In this document: positions 2,078 through 46,917 of the stretch, piece by piece
Numbering within the stretch: the stretch's first letter is position 1
Layout of the letters: the number at the start of each line of letters is the position of its first letter
Source: Candidatus Hebobacterum abditum
GTDB lineage: Bacteria > Armatimonadota > Hebobacteria > Hebobacterales > Hebobacteraceae
Direction: 5' to 3'
Assembly (NCBI GenBank): GCA_029821875.1
Contig: JALGXW010000019.1
Span: 1 to 59,308 of the forward strand
Length of the DNA: 59,308 nucleotides
Program-made: the position numbers and the translations under genes
The notes under the pieces: model-generated
Seen by the model: the letters and a program-made list of their open reading frames with translations, nothing else
Told to the model about the DNA's origin: nothing
Database searches by the model: none

Positions 2078-5000
2078 TTACCACTCGTCCGAGAAGGTCC
2101 GGTAGAGGAACACGGCCATCTGGTCTCGCGTCACCGGGATGTTCGGGCGATAGAAGCCATCCCGATAGCCCCTGACGACCACGGCATGGCCTCCGGGCGG
2201 GTCCGTACACACCTCGATTGCCTTGGCGCACCAGTAGTCGGCCGGTATGTCGAAGAAGAGGTCTTGGCTTGCCGGGTACAGTTGCTCGTCGATGCCGATC
2301 CATCCCTCGGCGCGGGCAAGGAAGACTGTCATGTCGTCTCGCTCGACAACCAGAGACGGTCTGAAGAACCCACCCGGGTAGCCCTTGACTGTGTCGTTGG
2401 CGACGCAGGCGCTGATCGCTGTGCCTGCCCAGAAGCCTGCTGGCACGTCGAAGAACAAGTCGCCGGCCGTATCCATTGGATCTGCCGGGTCGATCCATCC
2501 CTTGGCGCGCGCGATGAATACACACATCTGGTCGCGCGTGCACGGAATCTCCGGATGATACAGCCCGTCTGGATAGCCCTTGGTGACGCTCTCCGCAGCG
2601 ATGGCCTCGACCTCCGAGAAGGCCCAGTGGTTGAACAGGATGTCTTGGAAGCTATGCCAGAGCTGCAGGATCGTCAAGCCCCAGCCGGCATCGGTCAGGT
2701 AGGCGTGTCCGGCCAGGTGAGTGATGTCGCTCGCCCAGCCGGGAGTCTCGTAGTAGGCCACCTCCACGGGCGCCGTAGGCACCCGGAAGTCCACCAGCAC
2801 GACGCCGCCATCGCCGTCGGCGACCAGGGCGACAGTGGTGAGAGTCGCTATGGACTCCGCATAGCCGGAGGTGTCAAAGGCACCCACCTCGAGGGGGCTG
2901 CCGGGGGCCGAGATGTCGATTATCCGCAGGCCAGAGCTGCCGTCAGCCACGCAGGCATAGTCGCCGAAGACCGCAACGCCGCGGGCCTGCCCCGGCGTGT
3001 TGTAGAAGCCGGCTTCGGAGGGGTCCCCCGCGCTGCCGGAGATGATCTGGATGTTGTCCACGTACCCAAAATCACCCGTGGCGCTGTCCACGAGCCTGAA
3101 CCTGATGGCGAGGTCAGGGTTCTCCTCGGCCAGACTGCTGAGCTCGTGGGAGAAGGGGTGCAGAAGCCCGTTCTCCTCGGGATCGTCCCTCTCTATGCGC
3201 TTCAGCAGGCTCCAGCCGCCACCATCATACCAGTGGGCCTCGACCGCCGCCGAGGTGCTCGTGATGGAGGCCGCGAGGTAGTAGGAGACGGTTATCTTCC
3301 CGTAGCCCACCGTCGAGACGGTGCGCTCGATGCTGCCGTCGTTGCGCAGCCGCACGCTGTACGTCCCCTGTCTCGGGGTGCTGGCGTACCACTCGGCCGT
3401 GCCGCCCACGGTCCACCCCTCGACGCCGTCCTCGAAGTCCTCGTAGAACACCGTCACATCCGGGGTCCCGATCGGGGAGAGATTGATCAGCCGGAGGCCC
3501 GACTCACCGTCGGCCACACAGGCGAAGGGGTCGCCGCCCAGCGTAGCGGTGGCGATGTCCGCGCACCACCCGGGGGTGTCGAAGCTCGCCTTCTCGAACG
3601 GACTGCTCGGCATCAGGGTGGAGACTACCGAGATCCCTTGGTCGCCGTCTGCGATGACTGCGTACTTGGCGAACCCAATCGTGGAAGCGGCCACCCCGAG
3701 TGGCGAGCCCGACGTCTGCGCCAAGCCGACGAGATTGGGGTTGGCCGGGTTGGTGAGGCCAACCACCGAGAGGCGCCCGCCGAGGTCGGTCACGTATCCA
3801 TAGGTGTCAGCGATCGCGATGTCGGTGACATCGCCAAGGCCTTGGACGTCATTGATCAGCGCGGGATCAGTGGCCTCCTCCGCGTCGCTGACCTGAACGA
3901 CCTGCAGCCCGGCGCTGCGGGCGGCTACGTAGGCGAGGACGGACCCGTCGAACTGCTCGGCGACAGCCAGCTTCTCGCCGGCTGCCGGGCTCTCCCGGTT
4001 GGCCAGCTCCGTGTATGGGGGAAGGAGATCGACTACGACGAGTCCGGACTCCGCGTCGGCCACATAGGCGTATCCGCCGGCAACCACGAGGTCCGAGGGT
4101 CCCGGGACCGACGGCGTGCCGACCGAGGTCACGAAGACCGGGTCCGTTGGGTCGCTGATGTCCACGACGGCCACGCCGTGGCCGCCTACACTCACGTAGG
4201 CGTACTCCTGGTAGACAGAGACGCTGTGTGCCGATCCGGAAAGAGAGAGAGTCGCCACCTGCGCCGGGCTGGTGGGTGTGGTTATGTCGATCACCTCCAC
4301 GCCCGCGTCACCGCTCGCCAGGTAGATGTAGCTCCCAGCGTACTCGGCGCCCCACGCGTAGCCGCTGGTGCCCACCGAGGCGACGGGGCCCGTGGGCGTC
4401 ACGGTGTTCACAATCTGAAGGCCGGAGGAGCCGTCCGCGACATAAGCGTAGTTGCCCGAGAGCGCGACGTCGTTGGCCGAGCCAGGCGTGTCGATAGTCC
4501 ACAGCACGGCGGGTGCACTCGGTATGCCGGTGTCGCAGCACACAATGCCGGCGTCGCCCGCGGCGACGTAGGCGCGGTTGCCGGAGGCATTCACGCCATT
4601 GGGATTCCCACCCGTCGCCACCGCTCCGAATCCACAGCCCGGACCAGTCGTGTCGATGACCGCGAGCCCGCTGCCCCAGTCGGCGACGTAGGCGTAGTCG
4701 CCCTGCACATCCACGTCCATCGCCTGCATCGTGCCGGTGCATGACCAGAGCAACGTGGGATCGGTGGGATCCAGCACGTCGAAGGCCAGCAGTCCGCCGC
4801 TGCCGTCCGCGACATAGGCGACCGTGTCCGGCGCGGCTATCGCTTCAGCATTGCCATCGGTCTCGGCCTGGCCGACCAGCGTCGGGGTCGGGAAGGCGGA
4901 GACGTCGATCACACGCAGCCCGCCGGAGTCATCGGCCACGAAGGCGGCACTGCTCGCCACCGCGACGGCGTAGGCTCGGCCCGGGGTGTCGTGGGAGTCG

Positions 5001-5851
5001 ACGGCTACAGGGTCGCTTGGATCGGTGATGTCGACCGCCTGGAGACCCGCTATTCCCGCCGCGAGGTAGGCGTAATCGCCATCAACGAAGATGCCCCTGC
5101 AGTTGCCAGGCAGGTCGAGCGCGGCAAAGCTGCAGCCTGGAGCCAGCGGGTTGGTGATGTCGACTAGCCGAAGGCCTTCCTGCCCATCGGCAAGGTACGC
5201 GTAGTTGCCGACCACTGCCACGTCGAGCACACGGTCGGAAGTACTGCAGGAGGCGACTTCGGCAGGGGCGGCGGGGTTCGAGATATCGACTACGGCGAGG
5301 CCGGAGAAGCCGTCGGCCACGTACGCATAGCTGCCGGATACATCGACTGCCCACGCATAGCCGGCCGTGTCGTACGTCCCCTGCTTGCTCGGCGCGGCTG
5401 GCGTGCTGACGTCGATGACGCAGAGGCCGGCCGCGTGATCCGCGACATAGGCGTAGTTCCCCGACACAGCGACGTCGTAGGCATAGCCCGGCGTGTCCAC
5501 GGAGGCGACCTCCACCGGTGCTTCGGGATCGGATATATCCACGATGCGCAGCCCGGCGCTCCAGTCCGCGATGTAGAGGTAGCTGCCCGAGATGGCGACT
5601 CCCTCCGCCGACCCCGGAGTGTCGACGACGGCCACCTGGATCGGGTTGGCGGGATTCGAGATGTCGAAGACCGAGAGGGCGCCCTGCGCGGCGACATACG
5701 CGTAGCCGCCATCGGTCGCTACGTCGTGGGGAACTCCGTACGCTAGCCCCCCAGCCACTTCCAGCTCAAACACGGCTGGCGCCGCGGGCGACAGGATCGC
5801 CAGTGAGAGAGCCAGAGCGAGGCCGAGCGAGAGTGGCTTGGGAACGGACAT
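2078..5851 (-). CDS. Secreted LVIVD-repeat beta-propeller protein with three SLH domains
   Basis: This is a 1257-residue exported surface protein. A Sec signal peptide (about residues 1-26, ending SPAAPA) is followed by roughly 21 imperfect repeats of about 42-45 residues with the core YAYVADGxxGLxVVDIS. These are LVIVD repeats, which fold as beta-propeller blades. Between repeats 18 and 19 (roughly residues 800-940) lies a separate beta-rich insert beginning FYEDFEDGVEGW and ending GYVDNIQI, resembling a carbohydrate-binding or jelly-roll module. The last 190 residues hold three SLH domains (KGYPDGLYHPEIPCTRDQM, KGYPGGFFRPSLVVERDDM, RGYRDGFYRPNIPVTRDQM), which anchor proteins to secondary cell-wall polymers. 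A strong ribosome site (AAGGAGG) precedes the ATG. It is transcribed alone. Ligand unknown; an adhesion or S-layer-associated scaffold is the likely role. Confidence 0.9.
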   Translation of the reverse strand: MSVPKPLSLGLALALSLAILSPAAPAVFELEVAGGLAYGVPHDVATDGGYAYVAAQGALSVFDISNPANPIQVAVVDTPGSAEGVAISGSYLYIADWSAGLRIVDISDPEAPVEVASVDTPGYAYDVAVSGNYAYVADHAAGLCVIDVSTPAAPSKQGTYDTAGYAWAVDVSGSYAYVADGFSGLAVVDISNPAAPAEVASCSTSDRVLDVAVVGNYAYLADGQEGLRLVDITNPLAPGCSFAALDLPGNCRGIFVDGDYAYLAAGIAGLQAVDITDPSDPVAVDSHDTPGRAYAVAVASSAAFVADDSGGLRVIDVSAFPTPTLVGQAETDGNAEAIAAPDTVAYVADGSGGLLAFDVLDPTDPTLLWSCTGTMQAMDVDVQGDYAYVADWGSGLAVIDTTGPGCGFGAVATGGNPNGVNASGNRAYVAAGDAGIVCCDTGIPSAPAVLWTIDTPGSANDVALSGNYAYVADGSSGLQIVNTVTPTGPVASVGTSGYAWGAEYAGSYIYLASGDAGVEVIDITTPTSPAQVATLSLSGSAHSVSVYQEYAYVSVGGHGVAVVDISDPTDPVFVTSVGTPSVPGPSDLVVAGGYAYVADAESGLVVVDLLPPYTELANRESPAAGEKLAVAEQFDGSVLAYVAARSAGLQVVQVSDAEEATDPALINDVQGLGDVTDIAIADTYGYVTDLGGRLSVVGLTNPANPNLVGLAQTSGSPLGVAASTIGFAKYAVIADGDQGISVVSTLMPSSPFEKASFDTPGWCADIATATLGGDPFACVADGESGLRLINLSPIGTPDVTVFYEDFEDGVEGWTVGGTAEWYASTPRQGTYSVRLRNDGSIERTVSTVGYGKITVSYYLAASITSTSAAVEAHWYDGGGWSLLKRIERDDPEENGLLHPFSHELSSLAEENPDLAIRFRLVDSATGDFGYVDNIQIISGSAGDPSEAGFYNTPGQARGVAVFGDYACVADGSSGLRIIDISAPGSPLEVGAFDTSGYAESIATLTTVALVADGDGGVVLVDFRVPTAPVEVAYYETPGWASDITHLAGHAYLTDAGWGLTILQLWHSFQDILFNHWAFSEVEAIAAESVTKGYPDGLYHPEIPCTRDQMCVFIARAKGWIDPADPMDTAGDLFFDVPAGFWAGTAISACVANDTVKGYPGGFFRPSLVVERDDMTVFLARAEGWIGIDEQLYPASQDLFFDIPADYWCAKAIEVCTDPPGGHAVVVRGYRDGFYRPNIPVTRDQMAVFLYRTFSDEW

Positions 5852-5987: not shown

Positions 5988-8900
5988 TCATGGCCGCAGA
6001 GAGTGGAATCGCCTCCCAAGCACCACCGTCCCATATCGGCCGCGTTTCTGCAGAATCCCGTCTACAATTAGAGCGCTGTTGGCGAAGATGACTTTGCCCC
6101 ACTGTTTGTAGATGCGTTCGAAGACGGTTACTTCGATCAACCCTGTTTCGTCTTCGAGGGTGATGAAGACGACGGTCTGGCCGCTCTTGATGGGAGGACG
6201 CTGTCGGGCGATCACAATTCCCGCCACTCGGACGCGCCGGCCGTCGGGCAAAGATTCCAGCTGAGCGCGATTCACGACACCCATCTTGTGCAAGTGCTCG
6301 CGCGCGAAGGAAAGTGGATGACGCGTGAAGCTTATCCCCGTCATGGACAGCTCAGCGGCCGCTCTTTCTCTTTCTGTTGCCGGTGGCAAGCCGATGCCTC
6401 CATGCCCTTCGGGATCATCGGCAAGCAGCGGGAGCTGGCCTCCGAGCTGATGAGTTCGGTCTCGGCGGCGGGCGTCGGTAGTAGTTATTTCGTTGAGTTG
6501 CCAAAGGAGTTCTCGCCGCCGTCCTATGCAGTCAAAGGCTCCCGCCTTGATCAGACTCTCCACCATCGGCCGCGCCAGGTTGGTGCGCGCGCAGAAGTCT
6601 CTGAGCGACTTGAAGGGGCCGCCGTCTTCGCGGGCTGCGAGAACGGCCTTCAGCCCGGCCGCGCTGAGGCCGTAAACCTGAGCGAGTCCCACTCGAATCG
6701 CCCCCTCTTCGACCCAGTAGCGGTCGCGACTCTTATTGATGTCGACGGCTCGCACCTCGACCCCGAAGTGCTTTGCGTCGTTGACGATGACCTCTGGTGG
6801 ATAGAATCCCATCGGCTGGTTTGAGAGGATGCCGGCGAGGAACTCGGCCGGGTAGTGAGCCTTCAGATAGGCTGTCTCATAGGCGATAATGGCGAACGAC
6901 GCGGCGTGGGCCTTGCAGAAGCCGTAGGCCGCGAAGGCGGAGAGTCGGCGGAAGGCCTCTTCTGCGGTTGCTTTCTCGATCCCGCGCTTGCGGCAGCCGT
7001 CGAGGAAGGTGCCGCGGATCTTCTCCATCTCCTCCGCCGAACGGTCGTGAGTCATGGCGCGGCGGAGAGAGTCCGACTGGCCGAGAGTGAAGCCGGCGAG
7101 CGCGCTCGCCACTTCGAGCACCTGCTCTTGGTAGAGGATGACACCATAGGTCTCCTCGAGCGCCGGCCTGACGGACGGATGGAGATAGGTGGTTGGCTCC
7201 TTGCCGTGGCGTCGGGCGAGGAAGGGGCTTATCATGTCGGCCTGCATGGGGCCGGGCCGGAAGAGAGAGATGTTGGCGATGATGTCGTCGAATCGGGTGG
7301 GCTGGAGGCCGGAGAGCAGTCCGCGCATGCCCGGGCTTTCGAGCTGAAAGACTCCGACGGTGCGGGCGGAGCGCATCAGCTCATATGTCTTCTCATCATC
7401 TAAGGAGATGCGATTGAGATCGGGTGCCCGGCCGCGGGTCTCGCGGATGATGTGAAGCGCCTCCTCGATGGCGGCGAGGTTGCGCAGCCCGAGCATGTCC
7501 ATCTTCACCAGGCCGAGCGCCTCGATGTCGTCCTTGTCGAACTGACATACGATTACTCCCTTGGCCGAAACCTCCAGCGGAGTGAAGTTCGTGATCGGAT
7601 GGCGAGAGATAACCACCCCGCCGAGATGGACGCTCAGATGCCTGGGGAATCCATCTATCGTCTCGCAGATGTCGAGCAGTTCCTTCAACGCGGCCGCGTC
7701 GAACCCGGATCCGCGCAGCTCGGGCAGGTTAGCGATGGCGTCGCGGATGCGGCCGGCCGGGATATAGGGCATCGACCTGCTGATGCGGTCTATCGACTGT
7801 TCGGGCATGCCCAGAGCCTTGCCGACCTCGCGCAGGGCGGAGCGGGCGTTATAGGTGTTGACGGTGGCCACCATACCGGTGTGCTCCGGACCGTATCGCT
7901 CTGCCACGTACTCGATCATCTCGTCCCGCTTGCGGGAGTCGAAGTCGATGTCTATATCCGGCATCTCGCGGCGCTCGGGATTGAGGAATCGCTCGAACAA
8001 GAGCCGCGCCGCGAGGGGATCGACGGGGGTGATGCCAAGCGCATAGCTCACCATCGAGTCGGCGGCCGAGCCGCGCCCCGCGCACCGGATGCCGCGCTCC
8101 CGCGCCTCTTCCACGATGTCCCAGACCACGAGGAAGTACTCGCAGAGGCCGAGCTCGCGGATGATGTTCAGCTCGTGGCGGAGTCGAGCGGAGATGGGTG
8201 AGGTAGGGGAGGAGCGCAGGCGTTCGGCGGGAATGCGATAGCGCCGCGCGGCCCCCTCCCAACAGAGCCACTCCAACAACTCCTCGGCCAGCTTCCCCTC
8301 TACTTCCTGATCCGTCGTCGGCCACCACCCCGGCCGTTGTTGGGCAGGAGCTTGCCTCCTGCCCTTCCCGGTGTCTCGGGAACTCTCAGTGTTTCGGGAG
8401 CTTGCTCCCGAAACCGTTCCTATCTGAGGCCCGTATTCCCGCATCCGGAAGTGCGGGAAGTGAAGCTGCCCCAGTTCTAGATCGACCTCACACTGCGCGG
8501 CGATGCGAACCGTGTTGGCGATGGCCTGTGGATAAGAGGCGAACTCTTCCAGCATCTCCCGCGGTGACTTGAAATAACGCTCCGCGCCGCGGCGGCGGAT
8601 GGGGTGCCATTCATCTCGCTTCGTCAGCGTCTGGATGCAGGCGAGGACGTCCTGAACGGCCGCCTCCTCCGGCGTGAGACAGTGGACGTTAGCGGTGGCG
8701 ACGATGAGTGCATCCATCTCCTCCGCGAGGTCGGCCAGGCGGGCGATGTGCGGCCGCTCTTTTTCGTCCGGCTCCTCGCGGCACAGCTCGATGAAGAAGC
8801 GATCACGCCCGAAGATATCCTGATAGCGACATATCGCGCGCCGCGCCGCGTCTATGTCGCCACGTCGCACAGCAGCGGGAATCTCGCCGAAGCGGCAGCC

Positions 8901-9338
8901 GGAGAGCGCGATCACGTCCTCGGCACATTGGGCGATGGTCGAGAAGTTGCAGCGCGGCATCTTCCGCCACTGCGCGCCGGTGGCGCGGGTGTTTGGCACG
9001 GGCTCGATGGGAGCTTGTTCGCCCGCTGCCTCTCGCAGCACTCGGAAGTGCCCCGCGGTGGCCATGCGACAGAGGTTGGCATAGCCGGCCCTGGAGGTGG
9101 CCAGGAGGGGGAGGTGGTGGCCGCCTTCGGTGGTCAGCTCAACTCCCAGGATGGGCTTTATGCCGGCCTCCTGCGCGGCCTGGTAGAAGCGCACCGCGCC
9201 GTAGGTCCCATCGTGATCGGTCACCGCCACCGCCGGCATCCCCAACTCGGCCGCCCGTGCCACCAGCCGGTCCAGCCGACAGGTGCTATCCAGAAACGAG
9301 AAGACGCTGTGCACGTGGAGATGGACGAACGAAGGCAT
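5988..9338 (-). CDS. dnaE2: Error-prone DNA polymerase III alpha-type subunit (DnaE2/ImuC-like)
   Basis: This 1116-residue C-family polymerase is closer to DnaE2/ImuC than to replicative DnaE1. An N-terminal PHP domain starts HLHVHSVFSFLDS with VTDHDGTYGAVRF. The palm carries CAGRGSAADSMVSYALGIT and the catalytic PDIDIDFDSRKR near residue 460. NQPMGFYPPEVIVNDAKHFG is typical of DnaE2. The C-terminus is an OB fold (VRVAGIVIARQRPPIKSG) without the long tail of DnaE1. Such enzymes perform mutagenic translesion synthesis. No imuA or imuB lies beside it. Residues about 303-340 are a low-complexity linker encoded by two palindromic repeats. Its promoter holds a LexA-like palindrome, fitting damage-inducible control. 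The ATG has a GGAGG site 7 bases upstream. Confidence 0.92.
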   Translation of the reverse strand: MPSFVHLHVHSVFSFLDSTCRLDRLVARAAELGMPAVAVTDHDGTYGAVRFYQAAQEAGIKPILGVELTTEGGHHLPLLATSRAGYANLCRMATAGHFRVLREAAGEQAPIEPVPNTRATGAQWRKMPRCNFSTIAQCAEDVIALSGCRFGEIPAAVRRGDIDAARRAICRYQDIFGRDRFFIELCREEPDEKERPHIARLADLAEEMDALIVATANVHCLTPEEAAVQDVLACIQTLTKRDEWHPIRRRGAERYFKSPREMLEEFASYPQAIANTVRIAAQCEVDLELGQLHFPHFRMREYGPQIGTVSGASSRNTESSRDTGKGRRQAPAQQRPGWWPTTDQEVEGKLAEELLEWLCWEGAARRYRIPAERLRSSPTSPISARLRHELNIIRELGLCEYFLVVWDIVEEARERGIRCAGRGSAADSMVSYALGITPVDPLAARLLFERFLNPERREMPDIDIDFDSRKRDEMIEYVAERYGPEHTGMVATVNTYNARSALREVGKALGMPEQSIDRISRSMPYIPAGRIRDAIANLPELRGSGFDAAALKELLDICETIDGFPRHLSVHLGGVVISRHPITNFTPLEVSAKGVIVCQFDKDDIEALGLVKMDMLGLRNLAAIEEALHIIRETRGRAPDLNRISLDDEKTYELMRSARTVGVFQLESPGMRGLLSGLQPTRFDDIIANISLFRPGPMQADMISPFLARRHGKEPTTYLHPSVRPALEETYGVILYQEQVLEVASALAGFTLGQSDSLRRAMTHDRSAEEMEKIRGTFLDGCRKRGIEKATAEEAFRRLSAFAAYGFCKAHAASFAIIAYETAYLKAHYPAEFLAGILSNQPMGFYPPEVIVNDAKHFGVEVRAVDINKSRDRYWVEEGAIRVGLAQVYGLSAAGLKAVLAAREDGGPFKSLRDFCARTNLARPMVESLIKAGAFDCIGRRRELLWQLNEITTTDARRRDRTHQLGGQLPLLADDPEGHGGIGLPPATERERAAAELSMTGISFTRHPLSFAREHLHKMGVVNRAQLESLPDGRRVRVAGIVIARQRPPIKSGQTVVFITLEDETGLIEVTVFERIYKQWGKVIFANSALIVDGILQKRGRYGTVVLGRRFHSLRP
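8342..8414. repeat. Two palindromic repeat units inserted in frame inside dnaE2
   Basis: Unit one has arms GGGCAGGAG (8342-8350) and CTCCTGCCC (8356-8364) around a 5-base loop. Unit two has 11-base arms GTTTCGGGAGC (8391-8401) and GCTCCCGAAAC (8404-8414) around TT. They encode about residues 309-333 of the polymerase, a Ser/Arg/Gly/Gln-rich linker without family conservation, and keep the frame open. The half-arm of unit one recurs exactly (12 bases) in the intergenic hairpin at 46960-46983, so this is a dispersed element rather than ordinary coding sequence. Confidence 0.75.
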
Positions 9339-9460: not shown

Positions 9461-10144
9461 ATGCGATACGGCGAGATAATGGCGCTTCTCAGATCCCACT
9501 ACAAGCCCGAGAACATTGAGGGGATGGCCCGCTTTGGCATCGTCACGAAGAAGGCGTACGGAGTTCCGATGCCGGAGCTGCGGAGGCTCGCCCGGCAGAT
9601 CGGGAAGGACCACGATCTCGCTCAGCGGCTCTGGGCCTCCGGGGTGCTCGACGCCAGGACGCTGGCTGCTCTGATCGATGATCCAGAGCAGGTCACCGAG
9701 GAGCAGATGGAATCATGGGTTGCCGACTTCGACAACTGGGCGATCTGTGACACCTGCTGCGGCAGCCTGTTCGACCGCACGAAGTTCCCCTATCGCAAGG
9801 CACTGGCGTGGAGCAAGCGGGAGGAGGAGTTCGTGAAGCGGGCCGGCTTCGCACTCATGGCCTGGCTTGCGGTTCACGACAAGAAGGCCGAGGACACGCG
9901 CTTCGAGCGCTTCCTTCGCATCATGAGGCGCGAGTCGAGCGACGAACGCAACTACGTGAAGAAGGCCGTCAACTGGGCCCTTCGCCAGGTCGGGAAGCGG
10001 AACGCCGCCCTCAACCGCAAGGCGATAGCACTGGCCGAGGAGATACGGGAGATCGACTCCAGAGCGGCGCGCTGGATCGCCGCCGACGCGCTGCGGGAGC
10101 TCCGGAGCGAGGCCGTCCAGAAGAGGCTGGCGCGCGGTCGGTAG
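9461..10144 (+). CDS. DNA alkylation repair protein, AlkD-type HEAT-repeat glycosylase
   Basis: This 227-residue all-helical protein matches the AlkC/AlkD DNA alkylation repair family, which excises bulky or cationic 3- and 7-alkylpurines using HEAT-like repeats wrapped around DNA. The signature block SWVADFDNWAICDTCCG (about residues 85-101) and the later ERNYVKKAVNWALRQVGK carry the Trp, Asp and Arg that line the active groove in AlkD. Length is normal. It is divergent from the error-prone polymerase gene, with 122 bases between them. The shared region contains the LexA-like palindrome, so both may belong to one DNA-damage response. The ATG gives a standard N-terminus. Confidence 0.88.
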   Translation: MRYGEIMALLRSHYKPENIEGMARFGIVTKKAYGVPMPELRRLARQIGKDHDLAQRLWASGVLDARTLAALIDDPEQVTEEQMESWVADFDNWAICDTCCGSLFDRTKFPYRKALAWSKREEEFVKRAGFALMAWLAVHDKKAEDTRFERFLRIMRRESSDERNYVKKAVNWALRQVGKRNAALNRKAIALAEEIREIDSRAARWIAADALRELRSEAVQKRLARGR

Positions 10145-46002: not shown

Positions 46003-46917
46003 ATGGACTGGAGGCTGAAGAGCGTGATACGGCATGTGCTACTCGCGGCGCCCGCGGGGGCAACCATATACCGGTGGCTAACGCACCAGGTCCTAGGGTC
46101 CATGTCGGGAATGCCCGCCAAATGGTTTCGCGTGTTCCCATCGCGGGTGAAGGTGCTCCAGCGTGCTTTCGGATCGGAGGCGCGCTCGCAAGGACTATGG
46201 TGCTTCGACAGCGGGGCCACGATGGCGGCGGGACTGGCCATGGCGATGGCGACGGATGCGCCCGGGTTGCTCACCGATCGTTGGGACCGGCTCTGCGACC
46301 GCTACTGTGAGACCTCTCGGCGCGTGCTTCGCGAGAAGGGCCCCGACCTGGGCCGGCTCTCAGATGCCCCGGAGGACCGAGTCGAGTGGGCCCTGGCGCA
46401 GACCGCGGGGCAGAGAGCCGTCCCCGCCCTGGCCGCCATTGGCATGACGTATGTCAGGGATCACAGCACCGTCGACCAGGCGGACTGGCATGGCCGTATA
46501 GGCTGCGTCTTCTCCGGGGGAGCGCTGGAGCACTACACGCCGCAGGAGCTGGAGCAGGAGGTGGCTCGTATGGCCGCCGTGCTCCGCCGCGGCGGAGTGA
46601 TGAGCCATGTCGTCGATCATCGCGACCATCGATGGCATGCAGACAAAACGATAGCCCCGCTGGCGCATCTCATGCTGGAAGACGACGAGTACGACAGGCG
46701 TTTCGGGAACCCGCTGGAGTACCACAACCGATGGCTCCGAAGCCGGTACCTCGAGCTACTCTCGCGTCATGGCTTCGACGTGGAGTCCGAGGCGCTCCGA
46801 ACATACGAGGCTGACATGCCGCCCCTTGATCGCTCTCGCCTCGCGGCTCGCCTCCGGGACGCCGACGAGCAAGATCTCTCCACCCTCGTTACCCACTTCG
46901 TCGCAGTGCGTCGGTAA
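46003..46917 (+). CDS. SAM-dependent methyltransferase-like protein
   Basis: This 304-residue protein has a class-I methyltransferase layout, with a weak glycine-rich motif I region. A conserved post-motif block reads IGCVFSGGALEHYTPQELEQEV, then MAAVLRRGGVMSHVVDHRDHRWHADK, as in methyltransferases of surface-polysaccharide clusters. The C-terminus has NRWLRSRYLELLSRHGFDVESE. The N-terminus includes a short hydrophobic stretch and the basic VFPSRVKVLQRAF. It begins 6 bases after vanW, so both are probably cotranscribed, perhaps modifying a cell-surface glycan. Tandem hairpins follow its stop. Confidence 0.75.
   Translation: MDWRLKSVIRHVLLAAPAGATIYRWLTHQVLGSMSGMPAKWFRVFPSRVKVLQRAFGSEARSQGLWCFDSGATMAAGLAMAMATDAPGLLTDRWDRLCDRYCETSRRVLREKGPDLGRLSDAPEDRVEWALAQTAGQRAVPALAAIGMTYVRDHSTVDQADWHGRIGCVFSGGALEHYTPQELEQEVARMAAVLRRGGVMSHVVDHRDHRWHADKTIAPLAHLMLEDDEYDRRFGNPLEYHNRWLRSRYLELLSRHGFDVESEALRTYEADMPPLDRSRLAARLRDADEQDLSTLVTHFVAVRR

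Follow-up and report, generated by a model that had tools for sequence, protein, structure and literature searches.

The DnaE2-like polymerase gene of Candidatus Hebobacterum abditum carries, in its open reading frame, two palindromes that recur across the genome. The gene lies in the window, by which we mean the whole stretch of 59,308 nucleotides analysed here (contig JALGXW010000019.1). In the reading that we favour, with a probability of about 0.82, the first palindrome (H1) is a REP spread by a RAYT (REP-associated tyrosine transposase) that would have landed in frame in a disordered loop of the protein, a second palindrome (H2) would have landed beside it, and both have been tolerated. 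A first-pass annotation of the window had proposed that dispersed palindrome units had inserted in frame in the polymerase, and their genome-wide recurrence bears this out.

Hairpins and host gene

The two hairpin units first described are confirmed. Both have perfect arms and fall within the reading frame of a 1116-residue protein (Table 1); calculated from the coordinates, they code for approximately residues 309-333. H1 (GGGCAGGAGCTTGCCTCCTGCCC) has 9-bp arms around a 5-nt loop and is translated on the gene strand as GRRQAPA. H2 (GTTTCGGGAGCTTGCTCCCGAAAC) has 11-bp arms around a 2-nt loop and encodes VSGASSRN. An 18-bp segment between them, which forms part of a third stem, is missing from the orthologue (L015) in a relative of the same genus, a Candidatus Hebobacteria MAG, while both hairpins are present there. 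The related intergenic hairpin that had been reported 38 kb away is also found, between convergent ORFs (GGGCAGGAGCCCAAGCTCCTGCCC). Folded as single-stranded RNA, the hairpin region reaches -47.4 kcal/mol (z = -5.15, with 0/200 shuffles equally stable). The z-score and the genomic copy number together rule out a chance pair of hairpins, and an assembly artefact is ruled out by the separately deposited MAG of the same genus, which carries the same insert.

Table 1. Features of the window, in window coordinates.
Feature	Position	Strand	Basis
DnaE2-like DNA polymerase III alpha-type gene, host of the insertions	5988-9338	minus	1116 aa; Pfam and NCBIfam
GTTG tag of H1, a variant of GTAG, overlapping the palindrome by one base (its final G)	8339-8342	+	sequence; tag statistics
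H1, REP-1 palindrome, GTTG-tagged, CTTGC-loop subfamily	8342-8364	+	53 genomic matches; tag/loop subfamilies
Third stem, small, between the two palindromes (TTCCCG-GTGTCT-CGGGAA)	8365-8382		diverged 18-nt direct repeat; fold
H2, second palindrome family	8391-8414		11-bp perfect arms; nine genomic places
Intergenic palindrome related to H1, 4-nt loop	46960-46983		hairpin list; convergent ORFs end at 46917 (+) and 47033 (-)

The host gene has the Pfam domain set of a C-family polymerase (PHP, DNA_pol3_alpha, DNA_pol3_finger, HHH_6 and OB). In the NCBIfam search it scores 893.6 bits against the curated error-prone polymerase model PRK05672 (cut-off 939) and 973.4 against the DnaE model PRK05673 (cut-off 1002), and because it narrowly misses both of these best candidates, NCBIfam does not decide between a replicative and an error-prone alpha subunit. 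The genome has a second DnaE of 1301 aa, on contig C64, and homologues about 50% identical to the host polymerase in two other genomes (G007 and G010) adjoin an ImuB-type gene, a linkage that the host gene itself does not have. Given the indecision of the models, the second DnaE and the ImuB-adjoining homologues, we call the gene DnaE2-like. With a second DnaE in the genome, the polymerase is probably dispensable for routine replication. The same-genus orthologue is 92% identical in the alignment, and the comparison shows purifying selection on both sides of the insert: dN/dS is 0.034/0.227 over residues 1-298, and 0.046/0.439 from residue 351 to the end. By eye, the divergently transcribed neighbour (9461-10144, plus strand) resembles AlkD-type DNA alkylation repair proteins, and the reading frame at 2078-5851 (minus strand) encodes a 1257-aa propeller-like repeat protein whose C-terminal end resembles SLH repeats.

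The hairpins fall where the PHP domain is joined to the palm. This linker spans 53 residues, and in 32 outgroup polymerases its median length is 7 (range 6-23). The Ser/Arg/Gln-rich linker described in the first-pass annotation is therefore real, but not its length of about 35 residues: the excess over the outgroups is about 46 residues, and H1 and H2 supply about 25 of these. The 32 outgroup polymerases lack the linker, and no homologue among them carries the same linker with unrelated DNA. An AlphaFold2 model of the polymerase (mean pLDDT 85.8, pTM 0.83) has only three segments with pLDDT below 50, residues 107-124, 303-332 and 956-980, and the linker is accordingly predicted to be an unstructured, disordered loop. 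Compared with the same-genus orthologue, its dN/dS is about 0.8 on 46 codons.

Two palindrome families

Searching the 4.3 Mb genome with H1 at up to 3 mismatches gives 53 matches, while the reversed-pattern control gives 0. Judged by codon structure and Pfam domains, genes contain only two of these copies, in dnaE2 and in hypF, and 51/53 lie outside. Eight other apparent intragenic cases (L050, L156, L071, L047, L053, L057, L059 and L061) were rejected, as their domains start beyond the REP or none are found, and they look like over-extended starts or overlaps. The tag is GTAG in 23 and GTTG in 16 of the 53 copies; in a relative with a closed chromosome (G002, CP070816.1), the corresponding numbers are 36 and 13 of 67. 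Two subfamilies of tag and loop, GTAG with CGTGT and GTTG with CTTGC, are present in both of these genomes, and the polymerase copy belongs to the latter. Five other members of the family have many matches to the palindrome (27-67) and the other two have none or almost none; it is missing from most other Armatimonadota tested. For the orientation of REPs relative to the replication strand, we see no clear switch point by eye along the G002 chromosome.

A RAYT gene on contig C37 (188055-188537; NF047646, E = 6.9e-37) has inverted REP-1 copies on both sides, and the RAYT loci of three other genomes (G001, G003 and G004) are each flanked by palindrome variants of their own. Because of the tag and of these inverted copies flanking a RAYT gene, we take H1, on sequence grounds, to be a GTAG/GTTG-tagged REP of the RAYT/REPtron kind, and not a Rickettsia-type RPE. 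The copies beside the RAYT of this genome are of the other subfamily (GTAG with CGTGT).

H2 is a second, smaller family of dispersed palindromes, so that the two hairpins are not units of one family, as they had been described. Its exact core occurs at 6 places in the genome; as for H1, then, the arms recur elsewhere. A gapped pattern matches at nine places (control, 0), and the matches include forms with an inner hairpin. In the long form (L196-L201 and L206), a second hairpin, for example with GGCGCC arms, is nested in the loop. None of the H2 copies seen has a GTAG tag beside it, and we find no transposase for H2; the second RAYT of this genome has no flanking palindrome. Since H2 has neither a GTAG tag nor a flanked RAYT, we do not file it as a GTAG REP. 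H1 and H2 are adjacent at four places (dnaE2, C92:72.4k, C10:12.7k and C92:7.4k). We rejected a single composite element, given that the order and the spacer vary among the four.

Relatives, other genes and flanking repeats

In three related genera, the same loops of the polymerase carry other palindromes, and the linker sequences are wholly different between genera. The G006 linker has two REP-1 copies, translated in different frames (GQEASSCP and GRRQAPAE), and the G006 polymerase has further palindromes, including a copy of the palindrome P2 in a second loop. In G002 the linker has P2 (ATCCTTCGCTGCGCTCAGGATGAC, 16 genome matches) and the GTAG-tagged P3 (5 genome matches), and the next loop has a related nested palindrome. 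The PHP loop of G003, at about residue 110, accommodates four units (REP-1, P2, a P3-like unit and a second REP-1), and the G003 linker has another REP-1. The first two of the three segments predicted to be disordered are among the sites hit. The dnaE2 orthologue of G002 is split, with residues 1-795 at L017 (~1.876 Mb) and 688-1116 at L118 (~2.277 Mb); the halves have a nearly identical stretch in common, which indicates either a rearrangement or an assembly problem.

Other genes are also hit. The imuB-like Y-family gene of G002, whose protein on inspection of its sequence has AHVRVHG in place of the catalytic DMD motif of Y-family polymerases, as expected for an ImuB, contains REP-1 and P2, both missing from the orthologues in G001 and in this genome. 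Also in G002, the linker of a gltD-like protein holds a REP-1, and recG (L294) has P3 in its variable N-terminal linker at about residue 153. A loop of HypF is a second recurrent site, with REP-1 in the hypF of this genome (L168) and other inserts, some long and some short, in G003 (L317), G002 (L321) and G006 (L315). We do not count hypF as clean evidence of insertion, as the net gain in length relative to outgroups is only a few residues. All tagged copies checked (6/6) read in one orientation, with the tag at the 3' side on the gene strand, where it reads CTAC, CAAC or a near match, and the REP-1 copies in the G003 and G006 polymerases read the same way. All six frames of the GTTG subfamily and of H2 are free of stop codons; in the GTAG forms, just one of the forward frames has a stop. 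This distribution accounts only partly for the uniform orientation.

Some G002 copies of REP-1 are flanked by direct repeats, with 54/54, 25/26, 25/28, 20/21 and 21/23 bp matching at L217, L239, L245, L215 and L221. Direct repeats of 19-54 bp are unexpected for HUH transposition. An alternative to movement by RAYT chemistry is that copies were captured during break repair or template switching, which would explain flanking duplications of variable length. For about five G002 copies, the repeats (19-54 bp) exceed the 99% level set by mismatched-flank controls. One repeat, in the imuB-like gene, lies inside the segment missing from uninterrupted orthologues, and a diverged repeat (FRMRD / [FL]RMR[DE]) surrounds one REP-1 in the dnaE2 of G003 and G006. 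Against this, 0/52 copies in this genome exceed the mismatched-flank control, and ordinary tandem duplication, which could be the source of the G002 repeats, might look identical; the L217 region itself contains several duplications. We consider capture by repair doubtful, and treat the G002 duplications as a lead. A broader proposal, that loops of the error-prone polymerase genes in this lineage are recurrent landing sites for several independently mobile palindrome families, in one orientation and at times with duplications of variable length (~15-54 bp) that point to repair capture over standard HUH transposition, strikes us as similarly speculative.

Origin and precedents

For H1, movement by a RAYT remains our preferred account. 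A RAYT transposase would presumably have spread the tagged palindrome, one copy of which would have landed in frame in the loop between PHP and palm in an ancestor of the genus or earlier. H2 would then have landed beside it. Several conditions would have let both persist: the loop can absorb extra residues, the subfamilies concerned are free of stops in all six frames, and the enzyme, with a second DnaE present, is probably not needed for routine replication. Against this account, the flanked RAYT of this genome is associated with the other subfamily, and H2 has no GTAG tag and no known mobiliser. We infer that the linker insert is neutral, and the reason why these particular genes are hit is inferred in the same way. 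Simple tolerance does not explain the uniform orientation of intragenic copies or their concentration in DNA-repair genes.

A second alternative is that the insertions altered the activity of the polymerase and were selected, for instance through the fidelity or partner binding of a mutagenic DnaE2-ImuB pair. In-gene copies occur in the dnaE2 of five genomes and in the imuB-like gene and recG of G002, and a survey of REPs (PMC3733652) reports the same bias to repair genes and proposes an effect on mutation. The linker sequences, however, are predicted to be disordered, differ wholly between genera, and evolve at a dN/dS near neutral, on few codons; hypF and the gltD-like gene, also hit, are not repair genes, and the sample was partly ascertained through dnaE2. 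We find selection of this kind improbable. The insert may have an adaptive role, but our data give this no support.

RPEs have a large share of their copies inside protein genes, and the palindromes here resemble them in being translated in frame, which adds a peptide to a variety of proteins; H1, in contrast, is mainly intergenic. For this genome, the first-pass annotation proposed a protein-invading family like the Rickettsia RPEs. Such a family would fit in-frame palindromic inserts in several frames, but with only 2/53 copies in genes, a GTAG/GTTG tag in place of the CGTC reported at the ends of R. conorii RPEs (PMC3733652), and a linked RAYT gene, we regard it as very unlikely.

The nearest published precedent is not only the RPEs but the intragenic GTAG REPs of repair genes, including DnaE2. 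The 2013 study that describes these (PMC3733652) defines GTAG and CGTC REPs, and reports intragenic REPs, alone or several together, that favour genes of DNA replication and repair, with DnaE2 named (Figure 7 and text); insertion sites differ between species, recB excepted. The in-frame REPs in DnaE2 and other repair genes are the same here, and what differs is that the same loops of one polymerase are hit repeatedly, by several families and across genera. Like the GTAG REPs and REPtrons (PMC3733652, PMC2817692, PMC8266576), H1 is a short tagged palindrome in tens of copies, mostly intergenic, with a RAYT flanked by inverted copies; it differs in its lineage, Candidatus Hebobacteria (Armatimonadota), and in having GTTG instead of GTAG in many copies. 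REPINs and BIMEs also form REP clusters associated with RAYTs, but the cluster here joins two dissimilar units, H1 and H2, and not two inverted copies of one REP. The core finding is thus already known in kind (PMC3733652), and what we add is a new and well-supported case of intragenic REPs. New are the lineage, the colonisation of the same loops by several families, the uniform orientation, and the duplications of 19-54 bp in one relative.

These results add Candidatus Hebobacteria to the lineages with RAYT/REP biology and with in-frame insertion of REPs. They also carry a warning for annotation, as Ser/Arg/Gln-rich linkers in proteins from MAGs can be translated repeats. How REPs insert remains to be elucidated (PMC8266576). 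One polymerase in five genomes, with several palindrome families in the same loops, forms a natural series that could test both the mode of insertion and the 2013 suggestion that REPs prefer DNA-repair genes.
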